NCBI GenBank assembly: GCA_950295325.1
Contig: OX485808.1
Span: 25,752,527 to 25,816,526, forward strand
Length of the DNA: 64,000 nucleotides
Direction: 5' to 3'
Source: Polytrichum commune
Taxonomy: Eukaryota > Streptophyta > Polytrichopsida > Polytrichales > Polytrichaceae
Made by a program: the position numbers and the translations under genes. The notes under the pieces were generated by a model. That model was not told the origin of the DNA. It ran no database searches and was given only the letters and a program-made list of their open reading frames with translations. Positions 1,653-63,183 of the stretch are shown piece by piece. Numbering within the stretch: position 1 is the stretch's first letter; each line of letters begins with the position of its first letter.

Positions 1653-1820
1653 ATGGAATCAATAAGCGAGAACTCATGTAGTAGTGTGGAGTCGACGGCA
1701 ATGACTCACTTCACAAGAGGGATATCTTTAAAGGCATGCGTGGCCAAAGCGGCCGGGTGGAGTTTAGAGAAGTACAAGGATGTGACATTACCCGAGATTA
1801 AAGAGTGTAAGAAGACATAA
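1653..1820 (+). CDS. LTR-encoded small protein (RGxSLRAC family), intact
   Basis: An open frame of 55 codons from ATG 1653 to TAA 1818-1820 lies 15 bp downstream of the conserved LTR hairpin and about 140 bp before the LTR end. The core reads RGISLKACVAKAAGWSLEK (residues 22-40), preceded by a Ser/Thr-rich N-terminal half starting MES and followed by a charged tail. The same peptide occurs in five other intact copies (16790, 21239, 41905, 55710, 63019) with mostly third-position differences, so I read it as coding. I recognise no domain. It could be a regulatory or nucleic-acid-binding peptide of the retroelement, or an upstream ORF; function is unknown. Confidence 0.6.
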   Translation: MESISENSCSSVESTAMTHFTRGISLKACVAKAAGWSLEKYKDVTLPEIKECKKT

Positions 1821-2275
1821 TATAGACTTGGCTAAGTTGTGTATATTCCAACGATAGATTGGAATCATACATTGTGTTACAAAGAGAGAAATCTCTACAT
1901 GTCATTATAAACTTCTCCATTCGGGCTAGGACGAAATTGAAGGGTGGAGGCTTTTTGGTGACAGTGTGTGCATGTGTTGCTGATATGGCTTGTTGTTCTT
2001 AGTGTTGCCGTTGTCAGAGGGTAAATACGGGTTTCGGTGTGGGTTGGCGTGTCTGTGCTCGGGGGTGGGTGTCCAATCATATGTTGTGTGGTGTCTAGGT
2101 GTTGTATTTAAAGTGTTGGGTGTGGAATGTGTTTTTTGTGTGGGATGGGTGAGGGAAGTGTGTGTAGGATGGGTAGAAATAGTGTATGTGAAGGGGGTGT
2201 AGGGGGAGTGGAAGGTGAGGGTATTGTGTATAGTCTTGTTGGTTTTGAACAGCGGAGTTTGTGGCTGAGTTTGGG

Positions 2276-3721
2276 TTAGAGCCTGTTTCTTTGGTGTATC
2301 TTCTTCGCTGGGCGTGGGCGATCGTCTTCGGCAGATTTCAGGTGAGAAAGGTAAGTGTAGGTTACGGTGTTTTGTTTGGGTTGGCTGGTATTGATTTGGG
2401 AGATGTATGGGTTATTCGTAGGTGCATGTGGGTGGGTATGTGTGCTGTGTGTGTGCAGGTATGTAGTGGGTTGAGTACTGGGGATAGTTTGTGTTGTGTG
2501 TTGTGGAGGTTGATGTGTGAGTTGTTGATGTGTGTGGTTTTGTGTGTGTTTCTTTGTGCTTATGGTTGGGTTAGGGTTTGGGTGTTGGGGGCGTGTATTG
2601 GAACTGTGTTTGTGCTGCTGGTGGTGTACTTTTGTGGGGGCTTGGGTTGATATTTGATTTGTAAAGTAGGGGATTATTTGACACCTTGGTGATCCGTAGT
2701 TGGGGGGGCGGTTGCGGTGGTGGCTATTGGTGAGTGACTCTGTGTGATTTTGCTTATGTTTTTTGGATTGCTTGAGTCTTTGTGTGGTTTTTCGAGCATG
2801 AGTGGTCTTTGTGGAATGTCTTTGTGTGATATTTGTGTGGGTGGCAGGTGTACTGCCGTGTGTTCCTGTGTGATGTGCAACCGGGTGGGGGTGTGGGGGG
2901 AGGGAGTACCTTCTTGCGGAGTGGAGGGCGTATGTCGGTGTGCGCTTGTAGTGGATGTTGGTGAGGACTGTGGGAGATGGTGGTCGAGCTCCTACGCTGT
3001 TGGTGCGGCAGCGTCTTTGGGCGTTGAAGTGGGTCTTGCGGATGTCGGTGTTGTGGCGGCTCCAGTCGTTTCTTCGGTAGATATCCCTGCAGTGTCGACG
3101 GCTCCATCTGTGCTTGTGGGGGGGTGTGCGGGCGGAGGAGGTGCGGCTGTCTCGGCTTCGGCTTCGTCTGCTCCGGATCTTCACGCAGGGGGGTAGCTGT
3201 TTGGTGTTCAGAGGGTACTGGTGGCGGATCTTTGGAGCTGGTTGGTTGGTGCTGGAGGTGTCTGTTAGCTTAGGTTTGAAGCTAGGGTTGGGGTATTGGT
3301 GGCCTGTAGCAGGTAGATCTGGCCGCTTACAGTCGAATGTTTGGTTGAGGCCGATTAGCGCCCATAACACTAATAAAGTTGCTATATGCAAGAACTGCTT
3401 GCTTCGACTCCAGCTTGTGCTTCTGTTTGCGTTGAATGTTGTGGCCCTGTGTGTGTTCGGTGATGTTGCGGCTATAGATCTAGTTTGGTGTTGTTGCGAA
3501 AATTGCTTGCTTCGACTCCGGCTTATCCTTCTGTTTGCATTGGGTGTTGTGGTCCAGTGTGTGTTCGGTGATGTTACGGCTGTAGAACTAGTTCGGTGTT
3601 GTCTGTGGGTTCTTCTGGGTGTCCCCGGTAGATCATTGTGCTCCATTGCGTTCCGCCGTTTCATTCCGCTGTCGGGTAGAGAGGGTTCCGCCTTGGGAAA
3701 GCACTGGGCTTCTGGCTGCAA
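2276..3721 (-). CDS. Unrecognised 481-codon T/H/Q/P/R-rich frame, possibly LINE ORF1-like
   Basis: A long minus-strand frame with a strikingly biased product: Thr, His, Gln, Pro and Arg dominate, and the plus strand is correspondingly G/T-rich. The N-terminal part contains a 36-residue tandem duplication ending RSRSKQF in both copies, matching the 108-bp DNA repeat. No zinc knuckle, RRM or catalytic motif is visible. The degraded LINE at 9-14 kb, also minus strand, shows the same bias, so this may be the 5' ORF of a related LINE whose ORF2 was lost or lies beyond the left edge. The frame may equally be open because the GT-rich strand yields few stops when read in reverse. Confidence 0.3.
   Translation of the reverse strand: MQPEAQCFPKAEPSLPDSGMKRRNAMEHNDLPGTPRRTHRQHRTSSTAVTSPNTHWTTTPNANRRISRSRSKQFSQQHQTRSIAATSPNTHRATTFNANRSTSWSRSKQFLHIATLLVLWALIGLNQTFDCKRPDLPATGHQYPNPSFKPKLTDTSSTNQPAPKIRHQYPLNTKQLPPCVKIRSRRSRSRDSRTSSARTPPHKHRWSRRHCRDIYRRNDWSRHNTDIRKTHFNAQRRCRTNSVGARPPSPTVLTNIHYKRTPTYALHSARRYSLPPHPHPVAHHTGTHGSTPATHTNITQRHSTKTTHARKTTQRLKQSKKHKQNHTESLTNSHHRNRPPNYGSPRCQIIPYFTNQISTQAPTKVHHQQHKHSSNTRPQHPNPNPTISTKKHTQNHTHQQLTHQPPQHTTQTIPSTQPTTYLHTHSTHTHPHAPTNNPYISQINTSQPKQNTVTYTYLSHLKSAEDDRPRPAKKIHQRNRL
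3397..3612. repeat. 108-bp tandem duplication (in frame)
   Basis: GCTTGCTTCGACTCC starts at 3397 and again at 3505. The period of 108 bp is 36 codons, so the minus-strand frame at 2276-3721 stays open through both copies. Confidence 0.75.
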
Positions 3722-3908
3722 CTAGATTTTATCGGACCCGTCGAATCTTCTGGTCTTCAATCGAGTCTTCTAGTCTTCTAGTCTTCAATTTCTTCAATTT
3801 CTTCTAATCTTCAACCTCTTTCCCGTCGACCTATCCTGTTGAGGCTCTATATGGGTAAAGGGTAAGGGTAGTGTGATAAGAAACCACGGGCTTCGGACGG
3901 GTAAAACG

Positions 3909-3934
3909 GGACGTCAGAACACGAGCTGACGTCC
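3909..3934. repeat. Inverted repeat GGACGTCA...TGACGTCC
   Basis: An 8-bp perfect stem with a 10-nt loop. The arms contain TGACGTCA-like (CRE/TGA-type) half sites. Isolated; no adjoining gene is seen. Confidence 0.45.
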
Positions 3935-4006
3935 GAAAGATTGGCTCCTAAACTTTCAAACCCATAGTGACCAGCAATCGCGCCTCACCAATGGGAACGA
4001 CAGAAA

Positions 4007-4800: not shown

Positions 4801-4841
4801 TTATTATTTTTCTCCAAGACCAAGAATCACAATGCAATATT

Positions 4842-5335: not shown

Positions 5336-5338
5336 TTA

Positions 5339-12430: not shown

Positions 12431-12676
12431 TGCATGTGGCTATGGTGGTGTTAAAGTGACATTTGATGTGTCTTTTCCAGCAAGTGTTGTAGTGGGTCTA
12501 GAAAGAGGATGAATAGTTATGGGCTTAGTGCATCCCCTTGGATTGTACCTCTGTTAATTTGGATTGGTGCTAATGCACCAAAGTGGTTGCCGTGGAAGGA
12601 GGTTTTGAGTTTGTGTATATGTTACCGATTAGTTTGAATGCATCTTTGGGGTAGCCTAGATTTTCCATTAGTGTGA
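12431..12676 (-). pseudogene. LINE reverse transcriptase, downstream half
   Basis: Minus-strand translation gives LMENLGYPKDAFKLIGNIYT followed by a stretch ending in RGTIQGDALSP (codons near 12521-12560) and LFILFLDPLLQHLLE. RGxxQGDxLSPxLF is the motif before the catalytic YxDD in non-LTR retrotransposon RTs. A stop follows GDALSP and another follows about 20 codons later, so the enzyme is dead. The upstream half is at 13975-14050, separated by the fold-back transposon at 12685-13966. The LINE clade cannot be named from this. Confidence 0.8.
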
Positions 12677-12684
12677 AAAATATA

Positions 12685-15595: not shown

Positions 15596-16346
15596 GCGGG
15601 TGTGAGCCCAAAATGGTGCCCACATGTGGTGATTAACTCTTCGAAACCAATTTTAGTTTGACTTTGAGGTGTTATGACTATTCACAAAACATAAAAAGAG
15701 TGAAGTGTGGTGTGGATTTAAGTTTAGGCATTAGAATGTGTTGTGTAGTTATTTCAAGGTTGAATTCAATAAGAGTATGCCTTGATATTGTGAGTAGGGG
15801 GTAAGGTGAAGCAAGGTGAGCTCCGCGGGTTAAATGCCCACTTTTGGATCCACCTTGGTAGTTTAGGAAGAAGGAAGCTTGGTGGAAGGGGATTAGTCCC
15901 TACTTTGAAGGTGAAGGTTAAGGGATTGTGATTGGAGGTGCTAATCCTCTCACCCTATCCTCACCTGTCTCTCCCTCTCTCCCTCTCTCCCTCTCTCCCT
16001 CTCTGCTACTTAAGGTGGTTTCTCTCTCATTTTCCTCTCTCTCAACCAAGCGCTCTCAAGGGAGCAAGCTCTTCAAGAGCTTGAGCCACGTGTGTGGATT
16101 GCTAGTTCTTAGTAAGGTTAATTAGTTGAGCTCTCTCTCTCAAGGCCTCACAAGTGAGTGAACTCTTAGAGTTTAAGATTGCATATAGGGATTAAGTGGT
16201 AGTTAGTGAAAGTAGTGTGTTAGATTAGTTCATGACTTAGGAGCAAGGAAAATAAAAGAAAAGAATAACTTAGGAAACCTTTGATTAGTGAATGAGAGGG
16301 GGTGTATTAAGGGTAGCTAGCAGAAGGACTTACTATATAGTCACTA

Positions 16347-16500: not shown

Positions 16501-16789
16501 AAATTAATCAAGGGGCTGCCGGTAACTAGGCGTGAGTTGTACCAATGGTTACTTAGACAATTGGTAGGTTTAGCAAGCTAAGGCTAAGATTGTGTGGAGG
16601 TTGCCACTAAACTATCCAATAGGGTGTTAGACCAATCGTAGAATTAAATAGTTATTAGACAAGTGTTAAGCTCAATAGGATAGGCAAGGTGTGTGGAAGT
16701 CTCATGTGATTGTACGTAACATTGACTATAGAGTAAAGTGTTTTTCAACACTTGCATCTATCGTTCAAAATAACTTACTTGCATCATTA

Positions 16790-16954
16790 ATGGAGAATGT
16801 GAAGGACTCTTGCAATGGCAAGAAAAATGGGGTGAAGATCAAAAGAGTGAGGGGAATGTCAGTAAGGGCGTGTGCGGCTAAAGCCGCGGGTTGGACTCTT
16901 GAGAAAGCCAACTCTAGCACAAACCAAGAGACCAACATTAATAAAGTACAATGA
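16790..16954 (+). CDS. LTR-encoded small protein (RGxSLRAC family), intact
   Basis: The frame of 54 codons starts at ATG 16790 and ends at TGA 16952-16954. I chose this ATG over the upstream one at 16691 because it sits at the conserved spot after the hairpin and starts ME like the other copies. The core is RGMSVRACAAKAAGWTLEKAN, followed by a Thr/Asn/Gln-rich tail ending INKVQ. The first 20 residues are Lys-rich (GKKNGVKIKR) rather than Ser/Thr-rich; the copy at 63019 shares this, so two N-terminal types exist. Function unknown. Confidence 0.6.
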   Translation: MENVKDSCNGKKNGVKIKRVRGMSVRACAAKAAGWTLEKANSSTNQETNINKVQ

Positions 16955-17089
16955 GTGAGACAATACATGTTCATTTGAACACGAAAATTACCTTGCACAT
17001 GGTTCAATGTTGTAATAGATAAATGTGATTCTCAAAGTCATCACCCGGACTAGGACGCTTAAGGGTGGTGGATTTGGCCTCACAGCGGG

Positions 17090-21238: not shown

Positions 21239-21418
21239 ATGGAGTCAACAAGTTACAACTTCATCGAAGTGACGAGCACTAGTGAAGAATCAACGGCCAG
21301 AACTAAGGTTTCAAGAGGGAAGTCCTTAAGAGCATGTGTAACTAAGGCCGTGGGATGGACCTTTGAGGCGGCCAAAGCTATGCCCACTCAAGAAAATTGC
21401 ATTAATAAAACGTCGTGA
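21239..21418 (+). CDS. LTR-encoded small protein (RGxSLRAC family), intact
   Basis: 59 codons from ATG 21239 to a TGA at 21416-21418. An upstream in-frame ATG (21224) exists, but the conserved start is MEST. The N-terminal half is Ser/Thr/Glu-rich, the core is RGKSLRACVTKAVGWTFEAAK and the tail ends QENCINKTS. It differs from the 41905 copy at several core residues (A to T, A to V, L to F, K to A) yet stays open, with the Cys and the GW pair invariant. The Cys at core position 8 and the Trp are candidates for functional residues. Function unknown. Confidence 0.6.
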   Translation: MESTSYNFIEVTSTSEESTARTKVSRGKSLRACVTKAVGWTFEAAKAMPTQENCINKTS

Positions 21419-35161: not shown

Positions 35162-35168
35162 TTTTAAA

Positions 35169-41904: not shown

Positions 41905-42084
41905 TCATGACATTTTATTAGTGTGATCCTCTTGCATAGGTACATCATTGGCTTTCTCAAGAGTCCACCCCGCAGCCTTTGCCACACATGCCCTCAAAGA
42001 TTTCCCTCGTGCAAACTTGGTCCTGGCTGACGATTCTTCACTAGTGCATGACACCCCGCTGCGGCTATGGCTTGTCGATTCCAT
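41905..42084 (-). CDS. LTR-encoded small protein (RGxSLRAC family), intact
   Basis: 59 codons on the minus strand, ATG at 42084, stop at 41905-41907. The core is RGKSLRACVAKAAGWTLEKAN, the closest to the family consensus. The N-terminal part is MESTSHSRSG followed by Ser/Glu residues, and the tail contains PMQEDHTNK. An upstream in-frame ATG would add 11 residues across the hairpin; I prefer the conserved MES start. Function unknown. Confidence 0.62.
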   Translation of the reverse strand: MESTSHSRSGVSCTSEESSARTKFARGKSLRACVAKAAGWTLEKANDVPMQEDHTNKMS

Positions 42085-42279
42085 GAGGCACATAAGTGTT
42101 GAAAAATACTTATACAACTTATCATTGCCTCTTTGTCCACAAGTCCCTCACAACTCCTCCCCAAGTTCACACCTTAATGCGTCTACTAACCCAACTAGTT
42201 TAACCCAAATAGCCTAACTATCTAGCTTAACTAACTAGCCTATTAACTAGCCTATTAACTAGCCCCTTATCTCAGTCGT

Positions 42280-42552: not shown

Positions 42553-44006
42553 TTATACTAAACCCAAAATTAAGTGATACTAATCTAACATAATTTTAAA
42601 TGCTATAAATCTAGATGCCACAAGTTTAAATGTGACAAATCTAAACACCATACGCCTAAACACTATAAATATAAATACTACAAAGCTAAATGCGAGAAGT
42701 TGAACAATATAAGCTAAGCTCTTGTTTCTAAATGCCTTAAATACAAGACTACATCCAACAATGTGAAGCTAACTTCCAGACTAGTTAGTCTTGGTTCTTC
42801 ACCTTGAAACCTTGCGCACACACGTGCTCTTCTTTTGCTTCCCACACACCCACACTTATAACACATGGGGTGCTAAGGAGCACGAAGGAAAGAGAGAGAG
42901 AGAGAGAGAGGGGAGAGTGAGGGTTATATAGTGAGGTGAAAGGAAGGAGGTGAACACCTCCAAGGCTCAAGATAAGCCTTTTGATCATTTCCTACTTTGT
43001 AGGCTCTCATTCTATCATTTAAACTTTCAACTATTAAACCAACAACATAGATCCTAATTCAAACATTTAACTCAAGGAGCTACCCTTGGTTCATCACACG
43101 CTACACTCACCTAACTAAGGAACTTTCTTCACACCGCTAACCTTCTAATCAACCACTCCACACAAGCCTAAGGCCTAAACATAACTTCACTCAAGCCTCA
43201 CTCTTTTTATATTTTTGTGAATAATCATAAAACATCAAAACATAACTTCTAATGGTTTCAAAGGGTTAAGAACACATGTGGGCACCATTTTGGGCTCACA
43301 GGATCTCACAAACCAGACTGGGATCTCCGAAGTCACAACGGGATTACACTCTGGAAGCTAGCTATCAAGCACACTGTCGATGGAAGCACCAGTTCGGATC
43401 TGCCACAAAAGTCAACCTCTCCTGCTTGCTCCTGGATACTACCGAGGCCACTCGTCGTCTTTGGAGGCTCATCAGTGAAGAATCAAGGGGTCCAGCAAGG
43501 TGGTGAGCTATGGTAGGAGAGGCTTGAAGCCAAGTCGCCAAATCAATGTAGCAAAGGTGTCAACTTCAGGGTTCTACGGGAGCAATGCAAGGTAGCACTA
43601 GCGGCAGATGCATGAACAAGACTGGTGCAGATTCGGGGACTTCTACACCCGAGCTCTTGCTGGATTCACAGTCGAGGTGAGGGATGTGGACACGTGCAGC
43701 AAAAGGAGAAGTGAGGGCAGGGACTAATATACCAGCTCAAGCAAAGGCTGCACGCAATCTGTTGAGGGAGCTTGGTCTCCGCATGGCTTAAGCCTTAGTT
43801 AACCTTAACACTATTGGAGGAGGATGATGGTGGTCATCAGAAGACGAAGGCTGTTGTGATTTAAATGAAGAGACAGGGAGGCAAGGCAGTGATTAGGTAA
43901 GGCCTCAGTGGCCTTGAGCTGGGCATCGAAATGCAGTTACTGGGTGTGCCTATGTATTAGCCAGTAGTGTGGTGAAATTAGAATTAGTAGTAGAATTAGA
44001 GTGTGG

Positions 44007-46973: not shown

Positions 46974-47321
46974 GTTTGTGTGAGGCCAAACCGCCCACCC
47001 TTAAGCGTCCTAGTCCGGGTGAGGGAATGGATATCACATTCATGTTTCCATAATTCCATCTTACCAAATTCGTGAGAATCCATTACATTTCCCATCAAAT
47101 CTTGCACACCAATTTATTTCATGATAAGAATACAAGCATTGAAAAATGCTCTTCTCCTTCTTCCTAAGCTACGTACACACCCACAATTAGATCCCTAATT
47201 GTCTAGCCTACCATCTAAGTGCCATTAGTGCCCTTAGGCCTTTCCCATGATCGGCCGGTTCGCCAATAGTCCATACCCGGCTCTTAACTCAGCCCCTCAT
47301 CCTAACTCCAACTAGCTAAGC

Positions 47322-47655
47322 CTCCACCTTAACCAGCTGCCCTCGGTAGTCTCCCAGCTGATTAACTCCACCTTAACCAGCTGCCTCTCGGCAGTCTCCC
47401 AGCTGATTAACTCCACCTTAACCAGCTGCCTCTCGGCAGTCTCCCAGCTGATTAACTCCACCTTAACCAGCTGCCTCTCGGCAGTCCACCAGCTGCCCTC
47501 GGCAGTATCCCAGTTGATTCACTCACCTTAATCAGCTGCCTCTCGACAGTCCACCAGCTGCCCTCGGCAGTCTCCCAGTTGATTCACTCACCTTAACTAG
47601 CTGCCTCTCGGCAGTCCACCAGCTGCCCTCGGCAGTCTCCCAGTTGATTCACTCC
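47322..47655 (-). repeat. LTR minisatellite, 45-bp unit
   Basis: CCACCTTAACCAGCTGCCTCTCGGCAGTCTCCCAGCTGATTAACT repeats, then a longer unit adds CACCAGCTGCCCTCGGCAGT. Units are almost identical, so the expansion is recent. Confidence 0.85.
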
Positions 47656-47958
47656 GTATCTACTTAATTTCTAACAAGCCACCTACCTAAATACTCTAAC
47701 CAAGCCCATTAATTCTACTAAGCCACTACCTAATCCCCACATATTTTCTAGCTCTAAGAGCTCACATTCCTAGACGGAAAAAAAAGAGATAGGAGAGAAG
47801 AGAAAAAGAAGAAGAAGAAGAAAGAGAGGAGAGGACACCCAAGACCACAACCCCTTAACCTTCTCTTACTTAGTAGGACCATATCCTATCCACTAAGCCC
47901 TCACCCCCCGAACCAACACACACATGTTCTAAATCAAACATTTAAATCCAAAGCACTT

Positions 47959-48875
47959 TGTGAGGCCAAACCCACCACCCTTAAGCGTCCTAGTCCGGGT
48001 GATGGTTTTGAGAATCACATGTGTCATACCAAAGCTCGTGGTAACATGGAATATACTTCTATCTCAACAAGCTCCCAACTCACTTGAAATCATGATGCTT
48101 TATTAATGCTAGTCTCTTGAATAGGTATAGTATTGGACTTCTCAAGGGTCGACCAACTACTACACTTAACCTTACTAAGTCCCCTACAAGTCTCTATGAA
48201 TTCTACTAATTCCACTAATCCTTCTACTAATTCCCACATAACTCTAATTCTAAAACTCAATTCTATGAGAGGAACAACAAGAAGGAGAGAGAGAGAGAAG
48301 GAGAAGGAAAATGAGAAGGTAAGGAGGCCTTGTATGAACCTCTCCCCTTTACCCACACTCCCCTCTCAATACAACATACTCATGTGCCCACACACACGTG
48401 CGCACCCATACGTGTGCACCCACACATGCAAGATGGAAGAGCGCGAAGGAAGAGAAAGTGAATAGGAACACAAGTGAGTGAAGAAGGTGAGAAAAATATA
48501 TATATAGGGGAAGGGAAGGGGTGAGCACCCCTCAAAGCTCAAGATAAGCCCCTCGATCCTCTCCTACTTCGTAGGCTCTTATCCTATCCGCTAAGCCTTC
48601 AACTCCTAAACCAACAAGATGGATCCATATTCAAATATTTAAACTCAAGGAGCTCCCCTTGGTCCACCACATGCTACATTCACCTAACCAAAGAACTTCC
48701 TTCATGCTGCTAAGCTTCTAATTAACTACACCACATAAGCCTAAGGCCTAAACATAACTTCACACCAAGCCTCACTCTTTTTATATTTTTGAGAATAATC
48801 ATAAAACATCAAAATGTAACTTCTAATGGTTTCAAAGGGTTAATAATACATGTGGGCACCATTTTGGGCTCACAC
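47959..48875 (-). mobile_element. Nested solo LTR, internally deleted
   Basis: Termini TGTGAGGCCAAACCCACCACCC (left) and CATTTTGGGCTCACA (right), with CACTT duplicated exactly at 47954-47958 and 48876-48880. It is only 917 bp: the minisatellite, the hairpin and the 5' part of the small ORF are missing. A TA-rich TATA-like run lies near 48492-48507. Confidence 0.92.
48090..48149 (-). pseudogene. Truncated LTR small protein (C-terminus only)
   Basis: Minus-strand translation ends STLEKSNTIPIQETSINKAS before a stop, matching the tail of the RGxSLRAC family. The N-terminal 40 residues, including the core, are replaced by unrelated LTR sequence through an internal deletion. Confidence 0.7.
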
Positions 48876-49144
48876 ACTTCTCTTTGCTTCACCAAACACT
48901 ACTCATTCAATCAAAACACTTCCTAATGCCACTAAGCTTCTAATTAACCACACAAAATAGGCTTAAGGCCTAAAACATAAACCACACCAAGCCTCATTTT
49001 TTTAATATTTTTGATTATTCCAATAACCCCTCAAATGCAATTCTAAATAAATTCTAAACATAAAACAAATATGAGCAACCATTTTGGGCTCATATAATTG
49101 ACGACCATCGGGGGATGGATCCCGAATCACTTGCTTCGAAGGCA

Positions 49145-50307
49145 AGTTGTCGTTCAAACTTGATATTCCTTGCACCTACTTCCCGTGGTTCGGGTTAGGA
49201 AGCTCTCCCCGTTCAATGTTTCCAATTGCATGGAATTGTTGGAAAATACTTCGCGGACAAGATAAAGGCCCATCCATACCGCATCAAACTTACCTGGAAA
49301 TTCAAGTTTCCTCCCATCTTGAATCATCACCATCATTCCCGGTTGTAGTGCCCTCTTCTTGTGTCGTTTGTCGAAGGTGATTTTCCTTCAACGTTGAATC
49401 GCCTTGATGTGTTGAGCCGTCATTTGCCTTCTCTCATCAAGCTCCTCCAAGTCGGTCAATCTATTTTTCAACGATTGACTTTCGGTAAGGCGCGAACCTA
49501 TGGCCACTCGAAGAGACTCCACCTCATACTCAATTGGAAGTGTGGCTTCTAAACCATACACCAAGGAGAAGGGAGTAGCTTGGGTAGTTACTTTGTAAGT
49601 TGTCCGATAAGCCCACAATGCCGCTGTCAACTTTGTATCTCAATCCCTCTTAGAGTCCATCACCGTCTTTTGTAAGATGCTTACCAAAATGCCATTGACC
49701 CTCTCCATTTGATAATTTGTTTGGGGGTGGTAAGGTGTAATCTTCTTATGGTCAATTTGGAATTTGTCCGTCATTTTTTGAATCAAGGAATTTAGGAAGT
49801 GAGGTCCTATATTGCTCACTAAAATCCTGGGCACTCCAAACCTCGAGATTATATTTTCATACATGAATGCTGCCGCATGCGCCGCAATATCAGTTTTGAC
49901 CGCCTTAGCTTCCGCCCATTTGGTGAGGTACTCAGTGGCAACTATAATGTAAGCCATTCCCTTAGAGGAATTGGGAATGGACGTCGCCTACATAGTCAAT
50001 CCCTCACTTCTCAAAAGGCACAAGAGGCAATGATATATTTGACATAAATCATTCTGTAAATCCGTAAATCATTCTGAGCATACATTTGACAAGCGTCACA
50101 ACGCTTCACATAATTATGTGAGTCCTTAAACAAGGTAGGCCAAAAGATTCCCGCTCTAAGAATCTTTTGACCGGAAAGTTGACCGGAAAAATGTCCTCTA
50201 CATGCACTATCATGACAAGCCTCTAGGATGGTCGGGACCTCTACCTCCGACACACACCGCCTAAGCAACCCATCGGTTCCTCTCCTAAACAATCTATGCC
50301 CTACCAC
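49145..50307 (-). pseudogene. Ty3/gypsy integrase (element A), inactive
   Basis: In order on the minus strand: the H2C2 zinc-binding region (H and H around SACRGHFSGQ, then RCDACQ, 50011-50307), a frameshift near 50050 caused by a small duplication of AAATCATTCTG, the catalytic core (49640-49957) with EYLTKWAEA and NYQMERVNG, and the C-terminal region (49154-49630) with KFDAVWMGLYLV. The second catalytic position reads LVSNIGPHF: Asn (codon at 49811-49813) replaces the expected Asp of SDxG. In-frame TGA codons lie near 49637 and 49388. It would have inserted the element's cDNA in the nucleus. Confidence 0.88.
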
Positions 50308-50440
50308 CGCAAAATGCCTACTATTAATTCTAACATTTCTTCTCTCCTCCTTGGTCTAATATTCGGGCAACTTTTGTGTGGTTAAGAACTCCACGATACC
50401 CGCATACCAATCCGGTTTGGCCGTAACCACAAAAAGATTG

Positions 50441-50950
50441 TCATCCACCAACAGTTTCTCCCATTTCCTTGGACAACCTAGACAAGTGGTCGGCTTGCAT
50501 GTGCATGCGGCCCGTCTTATACTCCACTGTGTAGTCAAACTCCTCTAATAACAAGTCCCATCCAGCTAATATCTCGCTTAGCTCCGTCTTATTGACCAAG
50601 TACTTTATGGCTATGTGATCCACAAAGAAAACAACCGGATTACACACAAGGTAATGACGAAACTTCGTAACCGAAAATACCATAGCCAAGCATTTCCTCT
50701 CCGTGGTAGAATAATTCCTCTCGGCCGGTGTCAATTGTTTGCTAGCATAGGCAACGGGGTGGTCCTTACCGTTCTCACCCGTGGATTGACACAAAGCACT
50801 ACCAATCGGTACATTGCTAGCATCACAATACATATGAAAAGGCTTATCCCAATCGGGTGGCCTCAACACCGGATAAGTGCTCAACTTATCCCTCAACACC
50901 TCAAACGCCTTTTGGCAAGCATCAGTCCATTCAAATCTAACATCCTTCTT
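50441..50950 (-). pseudogene. Ty3/gypsy RNase H (element A)
   Basis: The frame contains YCDASNVPIGSAL, ERNYSTTERKCLAMVF, FFVDHIAIKYLVNK and HMQADHLSRL: all four catalytic positions (D, E, D, D) can be assigned. It lies between the RT thumb and the integrase, as in all Ty3/gypsy pol proteins. This domain would degrade the RNA strand during reverse transcription. It is the best-preserved part of pol here, but it is cut off from the RT by a frameshift near 50950-50975. Confidence 0.88.
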
Positions 50951-50973
50951 GAATAAGTGGGTAATGGGAACTG

Positions 50974-51649
50974 CTATTTAAGAGAAGTAGGAATCAACTC
51001 CCTATACAACCCTACATGTCCTAACAACTTGGCTATACCCTTCGCATTGGTAAGAGTGGGCAACTCATCAATAACCGTGATTTTGTCGAGATCCAGTTCT
51101 TTTTTCTTTTCGCTCACTACATAACCCAAAATAACTCCCTTGTGAACGCTCAAGAATGTTTTGTCCGGGTTCAAAGCCAATTGCATCTTCCTACACCTAA
51201 TCAAAGCCTCTCGCACACATCCTATATGTTGACTAGCATTTAAATTTGTACAACAAGTCGGTGAAGATGTACATGACAAGCCTTTGGAACGTGGCCGGAG
51301 CGTTATACAACCCAAATGGAATGACCACCCAAACAAATGTGCCCCATGGAGTAGTAAAAGCCGTTTTATGGATATCTTGTAATGCTATGGCGATTTGGTT
51401 ATATCCTGCATAACTATCCATAAACGTGTAGCGAACATGCCCTCCTATTTCTTCTAGAAGGAGAGTGATGAATGGTAAAACAAAATGATTCTTTTGTGTG
51501 CAAGCATTTAATTTCCTATAATCCACACACATCCTCAACTTTCCATTCTTTTTCTTCACCAATACCATCGGAGAGACCCAATCCGTAATCTCGATGGGCT
51601 TAATAAATCCGACATTCAACAACCTCTCTAACTCCGCTTTAATCAACAA
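50974..51649 (-). pseudogene. Ty3/gypsy reverse transcriptase (element A), catalytic motif lost
   Basis: The upstream frame (51233-51649) has GFIKPIEITDWVSPMVLVKK, LRMCVDYRKLNA, motif A FMDSYAGYNQI and motif B FGLYNAPATFQR. It ends at FTDLLYKFKC; the frame then shifts, and the next piece (50974-51240) resumes at CVREALIRCRKMQLALNPDKT, the region after the active site. The segment that should carry the (Y/F)xDD motif between them is absent in every frame: a small deletion removed about 12-15 residues. The enzyme cannot be active. Confidence 0.9.
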
Positions 51650-51850
51650 TTATAATCGTAGGTTCATCCTTCTCTCCTTTTGCTTAATGAGCCTAGCACC
51701 TGGAATCAAAAAATGCGATGCTCCACCATTTCTCTAGGCATACCCTTCAGCTTATTGTATAACCATGCAAAGGTGTTACTAAATTCATCCACCAAATCGT
51801 TATATTCCTTGATTTCTTCATCCACAGTTGAGACGCCATCTTTATTTGTC

Positions 51851-52352
51851 TCAATTTGCCATTTTTTGTGTAACATCTACATACTTCCAATCTCCTTCAG
51901 TAACATGAACTTGCTCATCTTTGTTTCTATACCAATCCGCTGGTACATTGGGATAATCCTTGACATCTTGTCCAACCACAATTGCAGTTGATGTCGTCTT
52001 GAAGTGTAAAGACTTCTCCAAGTTCTCAATTTCCATGATAGCATCCTCATCTAGGGTCTCATCCATATGTATTAAACTTACATCACTCTATTCCATACTA
52101 TCAACCCAAAGTGTCAATCCCCTTAAAATCCACTCTTCCTCGGTGAGCACCTCGCATGATTTTAACAAGGAATATTCTTCACTCCATGAATCAAGAATAT
52201 CATCGCTCAAGCATATATGGTGGGATATCGTCATGATATCGAATTCCGACTCCGGATAATCCCTCAACCATTGGGCATACTCTCCATTATCCCCATAATT
52301 ATAGAAACTAGGACCTAGACCACCCAAATGAACTATTCCTACCAATGCCTCA
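51851..52352 (-). pseudogene. Conserved PR-RT linker of unknown function (element A)
   Basis: Downstream of the nested LTR the element A frame resumes with SFYNYGDNGEYAQWLRDYPE, an acidic region and VKDYPNVPADWY. The same string of motifs is found in element B (57288-57960), so the linker was conserved before the two elements diverged. At least one in-frame stop (near 52085) breaks it. I do not recognise a known domain. Confidence 0.6.
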
Positions 52353-54081
52353 TGACACCAAAAATCCTCCACCCTTTCATTTCGTCCTAGCCCGAGTGGA
52401 AAAGTTTATAATGACATGTAGAGATTCCTCTCTTTGTAACCCAATATATAATTCCAATCTATCATTGGAATATACACAACTTGATTAACTCCACACTATG
52501 TAGTTTTGCATTTTTTTAATCTCGGGCAAGGTTACATCCTTAGCCTTTTCTAATGTCCACCCGGCCGCTTTGGCCACGCATGCCTTCAAAGATGAAGCGA
52601 GTCCTTGCCGTCGACTCCACACTACTACATGAGTTCTCGCTTATTGATTCCATGAATTACACAAGTTTAAGTATTGATAAATACTTGTCACTTATTGTAG
52701 TTTTCTCCTCACGCTTCAACCACTATATTGGTCTAATGAACTAATGGTTATCCCTAATGGAACCAAGCAAACTTCCTTTGTTCCCCTAGACTTTACTAGC
52801 TAATAGTGTAACGTTTCCATTACTTCTCGGAATATCCTGAAATTTTATCTGTAACTAGGGAGACAAAGCAAAAAACATCTCACCAATTTGTGAGCCTATA
52901 CCATTTTCTGTCCGACAGTTATGACCATTTTAGTGTGTCAGTCTACCCAGATTTCAGAATGTCATAACTTCCTCCCACGGGCTCCAAAGAACTTCAAATT
53001 TTGGGAGAAATCACAAAAACTAATTGTTTATGACCCCCTGAAATTTCAAACTATTTTTATTTTCTGCCAAAACGTTATGGCCTTTTTAGTCTGCAACTCT
53101 TGAAAACACTTCAGAATGATATATCTCCTTCTCATCTAGTCGGAATGACTTGAAATTTGTACCACAACTAGAAAACCTAAGAACAAAACATCCCTCAAAA
53201 TTTTATGCGTTTCCAAGCCTCTGTCCAGGAGTTATGCCCATTTCAGCTCAAAAATGTAGGCAAAGTTCAGAATGTCATAACTGCTACTCTAGTACTCCAA
53301 ACATCCTCAGATTTTGACCATATTCATATAACCAAGTTTTTTGCTAACCCTCTAAATTTCAACGAAGTACTCTCTTCTGCTCGGAAGTTATGCCCCTTAC
53401 AACCTAGACTAGTCAAATGACCTTCTCATTTACCAACTCGTGTTCCGGCAACGTGTCACACTTAGCAAACACATATACCCAAGAAATATGAACTCAAGAA
53501 CTACAACTTGAAGCCCTAAACTATCTTAAAATCATTCACACCCAAACTAATTCTAACAAGAGGTCAAGCCCTCTTCAAGGCCAACTAGCCTTGGCTCCTA
53601 ACTTCAAAACCATGCACACACATGTGCTCCTATCTTGCTTCCACACACCCACACTTATAACACGTGAGGTGCCAAGGAGCACGAAGGAAAGAGAGGAGGA
53701 ATGACGGAAGAATGAGGGAAGAATGAGGAATTATGTAGTGAGTTTGAGGGGGTGAGCACCCTCAAGGCTCACGATAAGCCTTCGAAATCTCCTCCTATTT
53801 TGTAGGCTCTCATCTTATCTCCTAACCCTTCCTCCCTTAAATGATCAACAAAGATCCTAATTCAAACATTTAACTAACCTTAGCTTTCTACCTATCACAC
53901 TTTACCAAGGTATGTCCTCATACTATTTAAATCCACTCCATACAAGCCTAATGCTTCAAACGTAGCTTTCTTCAAGCTTCCTTCTTTTTATATTTTTGTA
54001 AATAATCATAAATCAACAAAACACCACTAGTAATATCTTACAAGTGTTAACAACACATGTGGGCATCAATTTGGGCTCACA
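52353..54081 (-). mobile_element. Solo LTR nested in element A, 157-bp array type
   Basis: It lies between TGACACCAAAAATCC (52353) and TTGGGCTCACA (54081), with CCTCA duplicated exactly at 52348-52352 and 54082-54086. Removing it and one duplication joins the element A frame in phase (DE before, ALVG after). It is the minus-strand sister of the LTR at 25-1963 but has four instead of six 157-bp units (52917-53388). Hairpin AAGTATTGATAAATACTT is at 52669-52686 and the G-box double stem at 53634-53682. Confidence 0.95.
52496..52653 (-). pseudogene. LTR small protein, frameshifted copy
   Basis: ATG at 52653 opens MESISENSCSSVESTARTRF, the same N-terminus as the copy at 1653, but an 11-bp deletion then removes the TRGIS codons and shifts the frame. 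The DNA downstream still matches the core and tail. The LTR insertion itself looks well preserved, so the break may be recent. Confidence 0.75.
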
Positions 54082-54086
54082 CCTCA

Positions 54087-55577
54087 TCATTCTTGCCATC
54101 TTCTTTGGCATCACCTTCACCGTCCGAAGATGAAGCAATCTCTTGTCTAACCCAACCACCTAACGACCCTATGAGAACTTTGACCCTATTATCCTCCGGA
54201 CCATAAGTAATAGATGGCTTGACTCTTCTCCAATCTACTATGGTATCCGCCATTGTCAACCAAGGCCTACCTAATAAGATGAGAAATGTATCCTTGTTAG
54301 AATGCATCTTGATGACATGAAAGGTGACCACATACTCTTCCCCTTCGGTGCTAATCCTACAATCCTTAATCATTCCCAAAGGCACGGCCGGACTTTGATT
54401 CGCCATATTGATGATGAAAGGTGATGGACCCGTAAGACTAAGACCCAACTTCTTCATGGTATGCTCCGGTAAGATGTTTAAAATACTACCTCCATCCACT
54501 AGCACATTAGGAACCACCTTGTCCACCACTATAACTTCAATCTCAATTGGCTTGACATCCCGTCTTCCTCCCTTCGGTTGACCTATAGCCGCCATCCTAG
54601 TTCTCCTAGTCACCGGCATTCGTTCCTTGAGAGTCTTCCTAGCCACGGGTGAAATCTCCAACAATTGTCCAAAAGAAATATCGGCCTTGAGTGAGCTAAG
54701 ATCGGCCCATAAATCATAGCCACTCGACTTTTCCACTTTGGCATTGCCAACACCATCAAACTCATCCAAAGGAATTCACGGTCCTTCCCACTCTCCCATC
54801 TCACTATCCTCTAAATCATGAATAACATTAGGCTTCTCTTTATCATAAAGAATAACATTCTCATTCTCTAACTCTCTAGTGGCCCTCCTAGCTACTCTAG
54901 CTACCCTATCCAATTCGGAAAGATTAGGAGCCTCATCCGAAGAATACTCTTGACCGTCTACTCCTACCTCTAATGGGGCTTTCCCTCTCCTAGCCCTAGT
55001 GGTTACCGCTAATGCCGGTGCCTCATGAGTAACCTCATCTCCTAGACTCTTCAACTCATAGGTGATGGCATTGGTGTGTGGAGACCATTGACCTTGCTCC
55101 TCTCCGATCTCCATTTGGAGAGAAAGAGTGTCATCATGAGGTGACTCCACTACACCATCCATAAACCTCACATCTTCAGAATTAGACGGACCCGGATCCG
55201 TAGGAGGTTGACGCCTATTGTCTAAGTTTTGTGGACATCCTTGCCTACCTTGAATCGGAATGTAATTATTCGCCGTTTGCAATCCTGCCGGTGGATGAGA
55301 AGTTTGTCTCGCATTACCATGGTCGTAATACAAATTCGGTGGCCTAAGCTCATTCGGTGCTCCACCTTGAGGTCTAGCTCTTCTCATGTTGTCCATCGCT
55401 TGTTGTTGTAGATTGGCCACCGGGTAATTCACACTAATAACCTTATCCGGTTGACGACACTCATCTGAAGGATGGTTTCCTCCACAATTGCTACAACCAT
55501 GACCTTGTCCCTCAGACCAACATTGACCTTGTGCATGTCACCTCCCACAAAATGGATGAAACTCCCTCTCCTCCACG
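54087..55577 (-). pseudogene. gag C-terminus and aspartic protease (element A)
   Basis: The frame opens with a zinc knuckle CSNCGGNHPSDEC (CX2CX3HX4C-type, 55457-55495), then a Pro/Gln-rich and an acidic linker. A TGA at 54776-54778 interrupts it, and it continues in the same frame through LWADLSSLKADISFGQLL to the protease motif VLVDGGSILNILPEH. The catalytic triad reads DGG; D(S/T)G is the classical form, but DGG also occurs in plant Ty3/gypsy proteases. Gag packages the RNA and the protease cuts the polyprotein. A second nonsense codon lies near 55540. The N-terminal gag is cut off at 55577 by the LTR of element B. Confidence 0.82.
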
Positions 55578-55709: not shown

Positions 55710-55889
55710 TCATGATGTTTTATTGATGTTAGCCTCTTGAATAGGTAGAGCATTGGCCTTCTCAAGGGTCCACCCTGCGGCCTTGACCACACATGCCCTT
55801 AAGGATATTCCTCTTGAAACCTTGGCCTTGGCCAATGTTTTCTCATCAGTGCTCTTCACCTCAGTGAGGCTATGGGTTGCCGACTCCAT
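55710..55889 (-). CDS. LTR-encoded small protein (RGxSLRAC family), intact
   Basis: 59 codons on the minus strand, ATG at 55889, stop at 55710-55712. It begins MESATHSLTEVKS, has the core RGISLRACVVKAAGWTLEKAN and ends EANINKTS, very like the copies at 21239 and 41905. It lies close to the left end of the LTR, as in the others, although the sequence upstream of its ATG lacks a good hairpin. Function unknown. Confidence 0.6.
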   Translation of the reverse strand: MESATHSLTEVKSTDEKTLAKAKVSRGISLRACVVKAAGWTLEKANALPIQEANINKTS

Positions 55890-58467: not shown

Positions 58468-61221
58468 TGTAAGCTTCAATCCTCCTCACCCTTCGATTGC
58501 GTCCTAGTCCGGGTGAGGAATCATGGGCTACACCTCAAATTGCAATTCACATGTGCAAGCAAGGGAAAAAGATTGGGAGAAGTGGTGTATATAACACATT
58601 TTTCTTTCTTCCTTTATTAACCTTAACAGTATTCACAAATACTCCAATGTCTCACAATGTCACAACACAACCTCTAGCCTTAATGTACTCTTCCTGATTT
58701 TAATTATCCTACTTCGATGATACCACCGAAGCACTGCCCTAACTCCTTGCTTCTAGTGATATTCTGCCTAGACTCATTAAGACTTCCGATTTCCCTTTAC
58801 TCCTCCCTGGATGCTTGCTCTTCTAATTCGGCAGCATCACCATAAATGGGCAAGGCGTGAGGGGTTCCCCTTGCCTACATCTCGACCTCTGCTGGAGCTT
58901 CCGTTCACCTCTCCAGAGTCCGATGAAAAGGCCTGGTGCAGAATGGTGCACCCTGCTGAACTGCTCGACCATTCTTCTTGGAGGCAGATACCTCGGCGAG
59001 CTCCTCTAGTAATGCACCTCATCACCACTGTGGCTGTCACCCTTCTCTTGTTGTGGTCTTACTGTGGAGCTTGCGAACTGAGGTGTAGGCTTCCCAATTC
59101 ACCTACCACCACCTGCACCTGATTTCTGCCAACCTCCCCTTCACCCAAAACTTGGTTGCGCACCAACACCACGAAATCTCAGCAATCCAAGCATAGCTAA
59201 TTACCATAACCACCCTCTCCGCCTCCGAGGTTCCTCAGCGGGGAGCGGAGCTGGTATAACGAGGGATTGCACACGTTGACCCCGAATTCCACTTTATTCT
59301 CTCACTCCTGCACCTCCGCACCTCAGCTCCTACACAAGTTTCTCAACTATCTGATACCTTGGTTGTCTGTACCCGAGGCACACACAGATCTGTGATAACT
59401 GTATCCTCACCTTTGGAGAGGTCAACCGCCTCCCGCACCTTACCTTGTTATTCAAATGCTAGCCCGATTCCATTCCCCTTTCTCTGCACTCTAGCATAGC
59501 TCAGTCACCATCCCCGTCATTGCTGGGAATTAGCGGACGGTTGTCTCATTGGCTGTCTCGGAGCTTCTCCACTGCCGCCTCACATGCGAATCGTTCAAAC
59601 GCACCCAGGGCGTCCTCCTCTTCCACGCACCTCCGGAACAGGGTAGCCAATGCTGCTGCCGACGCTTAGAATTCCCCCAATCCTACACTGCAGTCTGGTA
59701 AAGCGCCCTTTGGCAGCCTCCTGTCGTTACGGGTTGCCGCTACACTCCAGATCTAAAGCTAAGATGGCTGGTCTTGGCCCCCGTAGAGGTCAGTATCCAT
59801 GCTAGGTTGTCCCGATACTAACTACCGCCGACCCATTCGGCCTCGTACCCAATTGTGGAAGGCGCGACCACAACCACTTCTACGCCCACATTCCAGCAAC
59901 CACGCTGATCACCCACTCCGCGCACTAGTAACCTTCCCTAGCATTCCTACTTACCCAGCAACGCGACAGATCGCGTTGGTTGCCTCCCGCGGCAACACCT
60001 TCGTATCATGAGAGCAAGCTAATTCGCCGATCCTACGCACATCAGATTCCCAGATAATCAATATTTAAGATCTGCCCTTAAAACGAGATGAAGAAGATCA
60101 CCCCAATGATCAGTGCTGAAGCCAGGTGTCGTGTGCACTGGACGCGGCTGCGGCTTGTACTTCCCTTCCTCGTCATCCAGCACCTCTCGCTGAACCGCGG
60201 CTGCCTTCAAAGTTGTGCGTGTCCCTCCGTCAGCAACCGTTACAAATTCCTCAACCCATCTGTATAGGCACTCTCCCACAGTCTCCGCGAAATTCTAAGA
60301 TAGTATAGAGCTTCCTCCTCCTTCCCTAGTCTCCTCCTTGTTGCATCTACCTTGCATCCAATCCCCAATGAGGCAGGGCTTCGCCCTCTCCCTACCTTCT
60401 CTCCCTCCTCTACCTCTAAAACATGCATAATGAGCTCCCTACCTCCTACCTCCCGAGACCCCTCCAACCTCTACCTTTTTTCCCGGGTTGCCCGGCATCT
60501 TTCGGGCCGCCCGAGAGAAAAAGCGGGTCAAGACCTTTTCTTTTGGCCTCTCCCCCTTTCAAACCCACTTTCCCTTTTCTTCCATTGACTTCTTCTCCCC
60601 CTAGACTCCTAGATAACTCAAACTCATTGGTAGATAGATAAATACATACGATAAAATAAAAGTAACCCCCCATAGTTATTAGCAAGTAATCACGCTCGTG
60701 TTATGGTATAAGTTGAGGGTTGTTGTGGTTGTGGTCACCAAGTCATGTTTCCTCGGTTGGTTGAGGAAGGATGTTAGTATTACACTTAGACGGTCCGAGT
60801 TCGATTCCCGTTGAGTTCGTCTGACCGCTTAGTGCCTTACACATGACTTGGCTAGTGATTTCTAGGCAGGAAATTAGTACCCAACCAACCGGCGCTTACC
60901 CATTCTCTTGAGCTATTCATGTAACTATCGTTCAATAAATAACGGTCATCATTATGACCCCTCTCTTATTCTATTGGTTTTTCTTGGTTTTTCGAAGTAC
61001 GTTTTTACTAGACTCTCCATTAAACGCTTATGTCTTCACCTCCCCTTTCTCCCCTAAGGTTAATTTCACTTCTAGCTCCTAATTACCTCTTAGCCTATTT
61101 TTACCGGGATATTCACCACCTCACCTTTCTCATCACTTAATAATTCCATCAAGCGTGAAATCAACGTATTAGCCATGTTGTTGCGATTAAGGATTAATGT
61201 GAGTACGATTTCGGGCTCACA
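58468..61221 (-). mobile_element. Solo LTR nested in element B, ORF-less class
   Basis: Left end TGTAAGCTTCAATCC, right end ATTTCGGGCTCACA, with CATCC duplicated exactly at 58463-58467 and 61222-61226. It is the longest LTR here (2754 bp), partly because of a SINE at 60738-60950. Hairpin AGTATTCACAAATACT is at 58628-58643, about 160 bp from the left end. The terminal hairpin has a fully Watson-Crick CCTCACCC/GGGTGAGG stem. No small ORF. Confidence 0.93.
60738..60950 (+). mobile_element. tRNA-derived SINE
   Basis: Pol III boxes are visible: A box GGTTGGTTGAGGAAGG (60755-60770) and B box GGTCCGAGTTCGATTCC (60792-60808), spaced as in a tRNA. The sequence between and after them does not fold as a tRNA. 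It ends in CAATAAATAA before GGTCATCATTATGACC. CCAAGTCATGT (60738) is repeated inverted as ACATGACTTGG (60841), enclosing the tRNA-like head. The precise 3' end and target duplication are not certain. Confidence 0.7.
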
Positions 61222-61489: not shown

Positions 61490-61604
61490 TTCATTCCAAG
61501 GAAATAAACAAATCTAAGTAAGACACTTACCATGAGCTATGCGCTCATTCTCTTCTCCTACAATGTCGCCTCCAAGTCTTCTCTAATTCCGCTTCAATTC
61601 CGGC

Positions 61605-61614
61605 GGACGCACCA
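61605..61614 (-). promoter_or_regulatory. Primer-binding site of element B
   Basis: On the minus strand TGGTGCGTCC starts four bases after the LTR end. It is complementary to a tRNA 3' end GGACGCACCA. From memory, plant tRNA-Arg(UCU) ends in GGACGCA before CCA, so that is the likely primer; this needs checking. It fixes the LTR at 61619 as the 5' LTR and the element's orientation. Confidence 0.7.
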
Positions 61615-61964
61615 TTTATGTGAGGCCAAACCACCCACCCTTAAGCGTCCTAGTCCGGGTGAGTGAATGGGGATCACATTCGTATTCACATAACTCCCTC
61701 TTACCAACTTCGCACAATTCCATTTCATCTTCCATTCAATTCTTGCACACCAATTTATTCCATAATGCGAGTACAAGCATTGAAAAATGCTCTTCTCTAT
61801 TTATTCCCCTTCTCCTACACTAATTCACAACCCCACACTCAAATCCCTACTAAAGCTTATTCCCTTATTCTATCCTCTAAGTTATGTGAGCCAACTCCAC
61901 TAATTCACTAAGGAGATGAACTCCTAATTAATTCTTCCTATATCCGGCCTTAAATTCCAGCCTT

Positions 61965-62887
61965 CCGCTAAGCCAGCAACTCCTTAATCCACCTTCTAGC
62001 TAGCCAGCAGCTCCTTAATCCAGCCCTCCGCTAAGCCAGCAGCTCCTTAATCCACCTTCCAGCCAACCAGTAGCTACTTAGTCCACCTTCTGGCTAGCCA
62101 GCAGCTACTTAGGCCCAGCCTCGAGGCTAACCAATGCTCCTTAATCCACCTTCTAGTTAACCAGTAGCTACTTAGTCCACCTTCTAGCTAGCCAACAGCT
62201 ACTTAAGCCCAGCCTCGAGGGTAACCAACGCTCCTTAATCCACCTTCTAGTTAGCCAGCAGCTACTTAGGCCCAGCCTCGAGGCTAACCAGAGTTCCTTA
62301 ATCCACCTTCTAGTTAGCCAGCAGCTCCTTAATTCAGCCTTCTAGCTACCAGCAGCTCCTTAATCCACCTTCTAGTCAGCCAACAGCTACTTAGGCCCAA
62401 CCTCGAGGCTAACCAACGCTCCTTAATCCACCTTCTATCCAATCAGTAGCTACTTAGTCCACCTCCTAGCTAATCAGTAGCTACTTAGTCCCCGCTCGAG
62501 GCTAAACCAGCACTCCTTAATCCAGCCTTCTAGCTTCCAGCAACTACTTAGGCCAAGCCTTCGAGGCTAAACCAACACCCCTTAATCCACATTCTAGTTA
62601 GCGAGCAGCTCCTTAATTCAGCCTTCTAGCTACCAGCAGCTCCTTAATCCACCTTCTAGTTAGCTAGCAGCTACTTAGGCCCAGCCCCGAGGCTAACCAG
62701 CGCTCCTTAATTCACCTTCTATCCAATCAATAGCTACTTAGTCCACCTCCTAGCTAATCAGTAGCTACTTAGTCCCAAATCGAGGCTAAACCAGCACTCC
62801 TTAATCCAGCCTTCTAGCTTCCAGCAGCTACTTAGGCCAAGCCTTCAAGGTTAAACCAGCACCCCTTAATCCAGCCTTCTAGCTAAG
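61965..62887 (-). repeat. LTR minisatellite, ~33-bp units, over 900 bp
   Basis: More than 25 units of the kind AGCCAGCAGCTCCTTAATCCACCTTCTAGCT and AGCAGCTACTTAGGCCCAGCCTCGAGGCTAACC alternate, forming higher-order blocks. The array is cut at its right end by the nested LTR at 62888. Confidence 0.88.
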
Positions 62888-63018
62888 TGTGAGGCCAAAC
62901 CCACCACCCTTAAGCGTCCTAGTCCGGGTGATGGTTTTGAGAATCACATTCACTTCATAACATCATAATGTGAATTGCTATGTGGCTCTCATGCCCAAGG
63001 TACTCACTTTATCTTAAC

Positions 63019-63183
63019 TCAACTTGTTACATTATTTTGAATCTCTTGGCGTGTGGTGGAATTTGATTTCTCAAGGGTCCAACCCGCGGCCTTGGCCACG
63101 CATGCCCTTAAAGAGATTCCCCCAGCACCCTTGATCTTTACTTCCCTTGTATTGCCCTTGCCAGGATCCTCCACATTCTCCAT
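63019..63183 (-). CDS. LTR-encoded small protein (RGxSLRAC family), intact
   Basis: 54 codons on the minus strand, ATG at 63183, stop at 63019-63021. It starts MENVEDPGKGN, like the copy at 16790, and has the core GISLRACVAKAAGWTLEKSN. In this copy the Arg before the core Gly is a Gly (GAGGIS). The two copies with the MEN type of N-terminus belong to the same LTR subfamily, so the ORF evolves with its LTR. Function unknown. Confidence 0.6.
   Translation of the reverse strand: MENVEDPGKGNTREVKIKGAGGISLRACVAKAAGWTLEKSNSTTRQEIQNNVTS

Follow-up and report, generated by a model that had tools for sequence, protein, structure and literature searches.

A short reading frame under purifying selection inside long terminal repeats of a Ty3/gypsy-type family group in the moss Polytrichum commune

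Long terminal repeats (LTRs) are normally treated as non-coding control DNA, and annotation takes solo LTRs as non-coding debris. We analyzed a 64,000-nt stretch of the Polytrichum commune genome (assembly GCA_950295325.1, contig OX485808.1, positions 25,752,527 to 25,816,526, forward strand; hereafter the 64-kb window), in which LTRs of a Ty3/gypsy-type family group carry a short open reading frame (ORF) of their own. Among animal retroviruses, the comparable system is mouse mammary tumor virus (MMTV), in which a second promoter in U3 directs the expression of Sag in B cells (PMC9412291). The additional ORFs described for plant LTR retrotransposons include env-like ORFs, gene23 of Grande, RIRE2 and ORF4 of Retand (PMC7264820; PMC11963269), and the additional ORFs treated in the cited passages of the review are those of the internal region (PMC7264820). 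A further example, the ORF0 of Retrosat2, RIRE3 and RIRE8, was not found outside the grass family according to the relevant passages of that study (PMC3485330).

Eight LTRs of the window, lettered a to h in Table 1, carry the ORF or its remains. A first-pass annotation, made from the letters of the DNA, had reported six intact ORFs of 54-59 aa, one frameshifted copy and one truncated copy, and translation bore this out. All six ORFs run from ATG to stop, copy g lacks 11 nt and has a later 1-nt difference compared to its close relative a, and copy h retains the C-terminal codons alone; that is, start, frame and stop are intact in six of the eight copies. No further copies of the ORF core were found within the window. 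The intact ORFs start approximately 300 nt from the LTR 3’ end and end 129-143 nt before it, placing them inside the LTR and not in the internal region, the location that marks the additional ORFs of plants. The columns invariant among the six intact sequences are M1, E2, G27, S29, A32, C33, K36, A37, G39, W40, E43 and E52, in agreement with the earlier observation that ACxxKAxGW and E are nearly invariant. The ORF-bearing LTRs form three groups (a and g; b and f; c, d, e and h).

Selection was counted on gapped alignments of the six intact copies, all from the one window; these counts do not include the broken copies g and h. In the core of the ORF (columns 25-46, 22 codons), the pairwise differences were 0.155, 0.145 and 0.497 at codon positions 1, 2 and 3, respectively (330 codon comparisons), and 7, 9 and 20 core columns were variable at these positions. 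The third-position excess was reached in none of 5000 codon-position randomisations for the core or for the whole ORF; the N-terminal part reached it in 3% of the randomisations and the C-terminal part in 45%. The pooled ratio of nonsynonymous to synonymous differences (pN/pS) was lowest in the core (0.24), compared to 0.57 in the N-terminal part and 0.76 in the C-terminal part; over the whole ORF it was 0.49. A codon model on the six-copy tree gave an omega of 0.157 for the core (likelihood-ratio statistic 34.3, p = 4.8e-9), 0.435 for the whole ORF (p = 1.2e-5) and 0.44 for the N-terminal part (p = 0.009), values that are rough because they come from only six intact copies in one 64-kb window with near-saturated synonymous sites. 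Omega was nearly unchanged across three topologies of c, d and e.

A phase-blind sliding scan of the aligned last 420 nt of the six LTRs (355 scan windows) placed the peak of the third-position excess, 0.347, in the ORF frame. The excess did not exceed 0.094 in the 110 scan windows outside the ORF, and it was negative on average in the other two phases within the ORF. The comparison of the codon frame with the flanking LTR sequence, which the first-pass annotation had proposed and which we ran on the six copies, thus revealed no comparable periodicity in the flanks. The earlier claim that the concentration of codon variation at third positions reflects a selected protein and not LTR control DNA is supported by the low omega of the core and by the confinement of the signal to the ORF frame. 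We conclude that purifying selection at the protein level acted on the ORF core as the elements multiplied.

As another possibility, we considered that what is conserved is not a protein but a nucleic-acid signal (RNA or DNA) in the R region, such as one for packaging or polyadenylation. The ORF is flanked by a covarying hairpin and, in the majority of copies, by an AATAAA motif (see below), and at the DNA level the LTR is more strongly conserved in its final 62 nt than in the ORF, without a three-base period: the mean pairwise difference was 0.16 in these 62 nt, 0.39 in the ORF and 0.53 in the stretches directly flanking the ORF. However, the variation within the ORF is concentrated at third positions in the ORF frame only and not outside it, and we regard a signal of this kind as a very improbable source of the conservation, one that the scan already disfavors.

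The ORF-bearing units are LTRs of a Ty3/gypsy-type family group. They begin with TGTGAGCCC (TGTAAGCCC in c and TATGAGCCC in e) and end in CTCACA, or GGTGNCA in a and g, and thereby combine the TG...CA ends of Ty3/gypsy LTRs with short target duplications, which are perfect and 5 bp long in five of the eight (b, c, d, g and h). Four of five flanking bases match in LTR a, LTR f leaves the window, and LTR e has no duplication, its mismatched flanks being those that would be expected of one LTR of a two-LTR element. The ORF-less relatives k, l and m have GAGGG, GGATG and CCCTA, respectively, on both sides. Empty sites were recovered for two of the insertions: the joined flanks of g aligned over the junction to uninterrupted sequence elsewhere in the window (87% over 395 nt), and the joined flanks of h did likewise (83% over 364 nt). 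LTR e and the ORF-less LTR j each stand directly after homologous internal-region 3’ ends, downstream of an integrase. The internal-region domains follow the order protease, reverse transcriptase (RT), RNase H, integrase of Ty3/gypsy elements in Pfam, with RT and RNase H above the Pfam cut-offs and the protease and integrase matches below them. The Pfam scan covered 16 of the 32 stop-to-stop frames of at least 110 aa in the window; five of the first six frames had retroelement domains at E 0.003 or lower and one had none, and ten further frames gave no match at 0.01. The window gave no hits in Rfam and tRNA scans. In LTR i, a PBS-like (primer-binding site) sequence beginning with TGG was read by eye 4 nt after the end. 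No complete element with two near-identical ORF-bearing LTRs around one internal region was seen in the 64-kb window.

The unit ends TGTGAGCCCAAA and TTTGGCCTCACA, read by eye, are inverted repeats at 11 of 12 positions and are accompanied by 5-bp duplications, as would be the case if the units were DNA transposons with near-perfect terminal inverted repeats and a small gene of their own. Yet the a/g group ends in TTTTTGGTGNCA, which breaks the long inverted repeat, related units adjoin the integrase end of a Ty3 internal region and a PBS-like sequence, and AATAAA stands at a nearly fixed place in most units. We consider the DNA-transposon explanation extremely improbable.

Five related LTR 3’ ends in the window lack the ORF (i, 61619, -; j, 46979, -; k, 37831, -; l, 58468, -; and m, 21802, +), and the ORF is therefore not a constant part of these LTRs. 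LTR l (58468-61221, -; 2.75 kb) is inserted in a protease region, and the longer LTR m (18125-21802, +) is interrupted by solo LTR c. LTR f seems, judging from its flank, to be inserted in LTR i. A 7-bp hairpin close to RAGYRTT-NNNN-AAYRYTT was present in 12 of the 13 LTR 3’ ends, ORF-bearing and ORF-less, and was not found in h. Counted from the LTR end, its position is -173 to -179 in each of the five ORF-less LTRs and -334 to -353 in six of the eight ORF-bearing ones (a, b, c, d, f and g); in e it is -462. The stem covaries at two pairs, with 93.7% of cells paired and six cells changed on both sides, and none of 500 shuffles showed covariation as high. AATAAA occurs at -140 to -151 in five of the eight ORF-bearing LTRs (b, c, d, e and h) and four of the five ORF-less ones (i, j, k and l), whereas none of a, f, g and m has it at this position. 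The motifs of b, c, d and e encode Asn-Lys in the frame of the ORF, with 6 nt between the motif and the stop codon. The ORF thus stands between two landmarks, the hairpin and AATAAA, that are common to the ORF-less LTRs, a placement that adds to the first-pass annotation and in which it has the appearance of an insert of approximately 165-180 nt. The simplest account of these sequences would be that an older LTR design had the hairpin and the poly(A) signal and that the ORF module lies between these two; the alternative is that the ORF was lost from LTRs i to m.

LTR e is probably a mosaic LTR with a j-like 5’ part and an ORF-type 3’ end. Its 5’ part is 88% identical to j in a stretch of 219 nt and 77% in the 168 nt that follow, compared to 62-68% for c, d and h; its hairpin region is 78% identical to j over 74 nt and 70-74% to c and d; and its last 197 nt are 88% identical to h. 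In LTR h, the sequence upstream of the remaining ORF codons (48169-48326, -) resembles part of LTR j (69% over 166 nt), as if the N-terminal half of the ORF had been replaced. A fragment of a host gene, captured once and spread by LTR recombination, might also account for the ORF, its constraint then dating from the host gene or from an early period. The insert-like appearance of the ORF between the landmarks of ORF-less LTRs would fit such a capture, and the composition of LTR e suggests that the module moved between LTR backgrounds. Against this, three divergent groups keep the whole frame despite near-saturated synonymous change, which calls for constraint during the evolution of the LTRs, and there is no other copy of the core in the window and no match to a Pfam or NCBIfam family. 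We consider a single captured fragment quite unlikely.

Possible expression signals were found upstream of the ORF. LTRs a, c and d have TATATA at positions 344-370, and a pyrimidine-rich stretch comes after it; LTR h has a TATA run at approximately position 368, also followed by such a stretch, and b, e and f have the pyrimidine-rich stretch without that TATA. In LTR d, TATATA and the stretch after it are a probable promoter, in which case R would be approximately 1 kb long and the ORF would lie near its 3’ end. The position between the hairpin and AATAAA likewise makes it probable that R contains the ORF, which would then occur close to either end of the genomic RNA, and the earlier suggestion that it precedes gag in a full-length element is plausible because of this location. 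Two candidate features were dropped after inspection by eye: a splice acceptor just upstream of the ORF, for which no consistent AG and pyrimidine tract was seen, and a TATA box beside the hairpin, which was inconsistent between copies.

On the strength of the selection on the core and of this arrangement, we consider it more likely than not that the Ty3/gypsy-type LTRs carry a complete small gene for a selected accessory protein, most likely located in R. Transcription would start near LTR position 400 and end just after AATAAA, an anatomy that would give the genomic RNA a copy of the ORF close to each end and any short LTR-only RNA one at its 3’ end. The predicted proteins are small, mostly basic (pI 7.7-10.0) and hydrophilic, and the conserved core is predicted to hold a short helix (SLRACVAKA). 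A small, mostly basic accessory protein with this helix might be made in trans, its source being either a short LTR RNA or an alternative start close to the hairpin, and it could aid the element’s own expression or replication, by analogy with LTR-encoded proteins of complex retroviruses, for instance Sag and Naf of MMTV. That the product is an accessory protein is a commitment of this proposal and not a result.

Several observations weigh against the small-gene proposal. The start codons between LTR position 401, which directly follows the TATA position, and the ORF number 22 in a, 4 in b, 12 in c, 6 in d, 8 in e and 17 in g, and at least 3 in f, which is cut by the window end. Ribosomes that simply scan from that promoter would therefore reach the ORF with difficulty in the majority of copies, though with less difficulty in b and f; its translation may need a second promoter, splicing or some other mode of initiation. 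These upstream ATGs are the main weakness of the idea that each solo LTR is a mini-gene, which the first-pass annotation had put forward and which was not borne out, given the 4 to 22 of them in the six copies with a whole leader. Two of the eight copies (g and h) are broken, the synonymous sites are near saturation (pS 0.41-0.77 among the six copies), and protein-level constraint is absent from the C-terminal 13 codons (omega 1.46, p = 0.44). The AlphaFold2 model is poor (mean pLDDT 55), with helices at residues 30-37 and 42-45 only. None of the six intact members matched a family in Pfam or NCBIfam (best E 0.09 and 0.059, respectively, for one member each) or an entry in the PDB up to E 10. 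As for the hairpin, the shuffles gave more further pair types than were observed, and the twelve hairpins had been selected by eye.

The unconstrained C-terminus also bears on the possibility that the ORF is an upstream ORF (uORF) with a conserved peptide in the 5’ leader, controlling gag translation in cis through the nascent peptide or the behaviour of the ribosome. A location in R would put the ORF in the leader upstream of gag, and its middle is conserved, as this explanation would have it. Stalling peptides usually require C-terminal residues, however, and it is the last 13 codons that are free to vary here; in four of the six intact copies the poly(A) signal overlaps C-terminal codons, and other ATGs precede the ORF. 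A cis-acting leader peptide is less likely than an accessory protein because the C-terminus is unconstrained, and we hold it to be unlikely.

We searched for relatives of the protein in viral and prokaryote contigs. A scan of viral contigs for the core pattern returned 26 stretches and no relative, and the LTR end motif had no exact match in these contigs. The same scan of contigs from prokaryote genomes returned 20 stretches, among them one reported relative in a Parvibaculum metagenome-assembled genome (L001; 44% over 34 residues, in an open stretch of approximately 100 codons). This likeness lies mainly in ACVTKAAGW, the word that the scan required, and the candidate is probably a chance match.

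A broader proposal, that a plant Ty3 lineage keeps an accessory gene wholly in its LTR, between a structured element and the poly(A) signal, and that solo LTRs could stay small-protein genes acting in trans for surviving elements or for the host, is offered tentatively, as a possibility that we would not yet expect to hold. On this view solo LTRs, of which a genome would have many should the window be typical, could persist as small-protein genes once the rest of the element is gone. If an LTR does code for a selected protein, recombination between LTRs would remove gag and pol but leave the gene, copies of which would accumulate in the genome, and the annotation of solo LTRs would change. A coding LTR of this kind predicts purifying selection on the LTR frame throughout the family and peptides where the LTRs are transcribed.

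The middles of the LTRs consist of tandem arrays whose unit differs from copy to copy, and both LTR ends are conserved. The arrays occupy LTR positions 747-900 in b, 590-961 in c, 769-982 in d and 358-536 of the part present in f; another lies in LTR i at 61948-62885. The window also contains inverted and direct repeats at 12664-13966 and 33865-35169, 73-98% identical and apparently unrelated to the LTRs described here. The features of the window are listed in Table 1.

Table 1. Coordinates of the ORF copies, their LTRs and associated features in the 64-kb window
Feature	Position	Strand	Remarks
ORF copy a	1653..1820	+	55 aa, intact; LTR a 25-1963, flanks match at 4/5 bases
ORF copy b	16790..16954	+	54 aa, intact; solo LTR b 15601-17084, duplication GCGGG
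ORF copy c	21239..21418	+	59 aa, intact; solo LTR c 19979-21547, duplication CAATC
ORF copy d	41905..42084	-	59 aa, intact; solo LTR d 41773-43300, duplication GATCC
ORF copy e	55710..55889	-	59 aa, intact; LTR e 55578 to ~57171, 5’ end joined to Ty3 internal 3’ end
ORF copy f	63019..63183	-	54 aa, intact; LTR f 62888 to past window end
ORF copy g	52496..52653	-	frameshifted; solo LTR g 52353-54081, duplication TGAGG, within Ty3 protease region
ORF copy h	48090..48149	-	C-terminal codons only; solo LTR h 47959-48874, duplication AAGTG, nested in other LTR
LTR i, 3’ part, ORF-less	61619..62887	-	hairpin at -174; AATAAA at -141 and -187
LTR j (X), 3’ part, ORF-less	46979..47958	-	5’ part ~48875-49099, split by LTR h
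Hairpin upstream of ORF, LTR d	42094..42111	-	one mismatched pair
Hairpin, further copy	16736..16753	+	upstream of poly(A) signal
Hairpin, further copy	61775..61792	-	upstream of poly(A) signal
AATAAA of LTR d	41914..41919	-	in ORF frame (Asn-Lys codons), 147 nt from LTR 3’ end
TATATA of LTR d	42925..42930	-	LTR position ~371, then pyrimidine-rich stretch; probable promoter
Ty3 internal region	49643..54775	-	degenerate, interrupted by LTR g, upstream of LTR j

The first-pass annotation had pointed to no described plant family of this kind, and we found none in the consulted parts of openly licensed PubMed Central papers, among which a search for the letters of the ORF core gave no paper; this is the scope of the literature covered, and absence from print is not established by it. 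The phrase ‘LTR ORF’ in the pertinent passages of PMC12037069 was set aside as a parallel, since it means ordinary polyprotein ORFs there. Retrozymes resemble the ORF-bearing LTRs in having a functional LTR feature beyond control signals, but that feature is a ribozyme, compared to a protein here (PMC4918200, PMC9695139). The plant additional ORFs, in the sections that describe them, are like the moss ORF in being extra conserved ORFs of unknown function in LTR elements (PMC7264820; PMC11963269); they are internal, mostly between pol and the 3’ LTR, whereas the moss ORF is in the LTR and so survives in solo LTRs. The ORF0 of Retrosat2, RIRE3 and RIRE8 is a further parallel, being an additional ORF that precedes gag-pol in long-LTR elements and diverges more rapidly than the gag-pol ORF; it differs in being described upstream of the gag-pol ORF, with no placement in the LTR in the passages cited (PMC3485330). 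A protein-coding frame under selection inside an LTR is the mark of a retroviral-type LTR accessory protein, and such a frame is present here. MMTV sag/naf, in the description used here, is like the moss ORF in that the protein is encoded within the LTR itself, with the difference that the MMTV ORF is in U3 and the moss ORF probably in R, beside the poly(A) signal (PMC9412291). The two have hosts in different kingdoms, the moss protein is much shorter, and the likeness is one of arrangement. If the proposed gene is real, plants would gain a counterpart to the LTR-encoded proteins of animal retroviruses.

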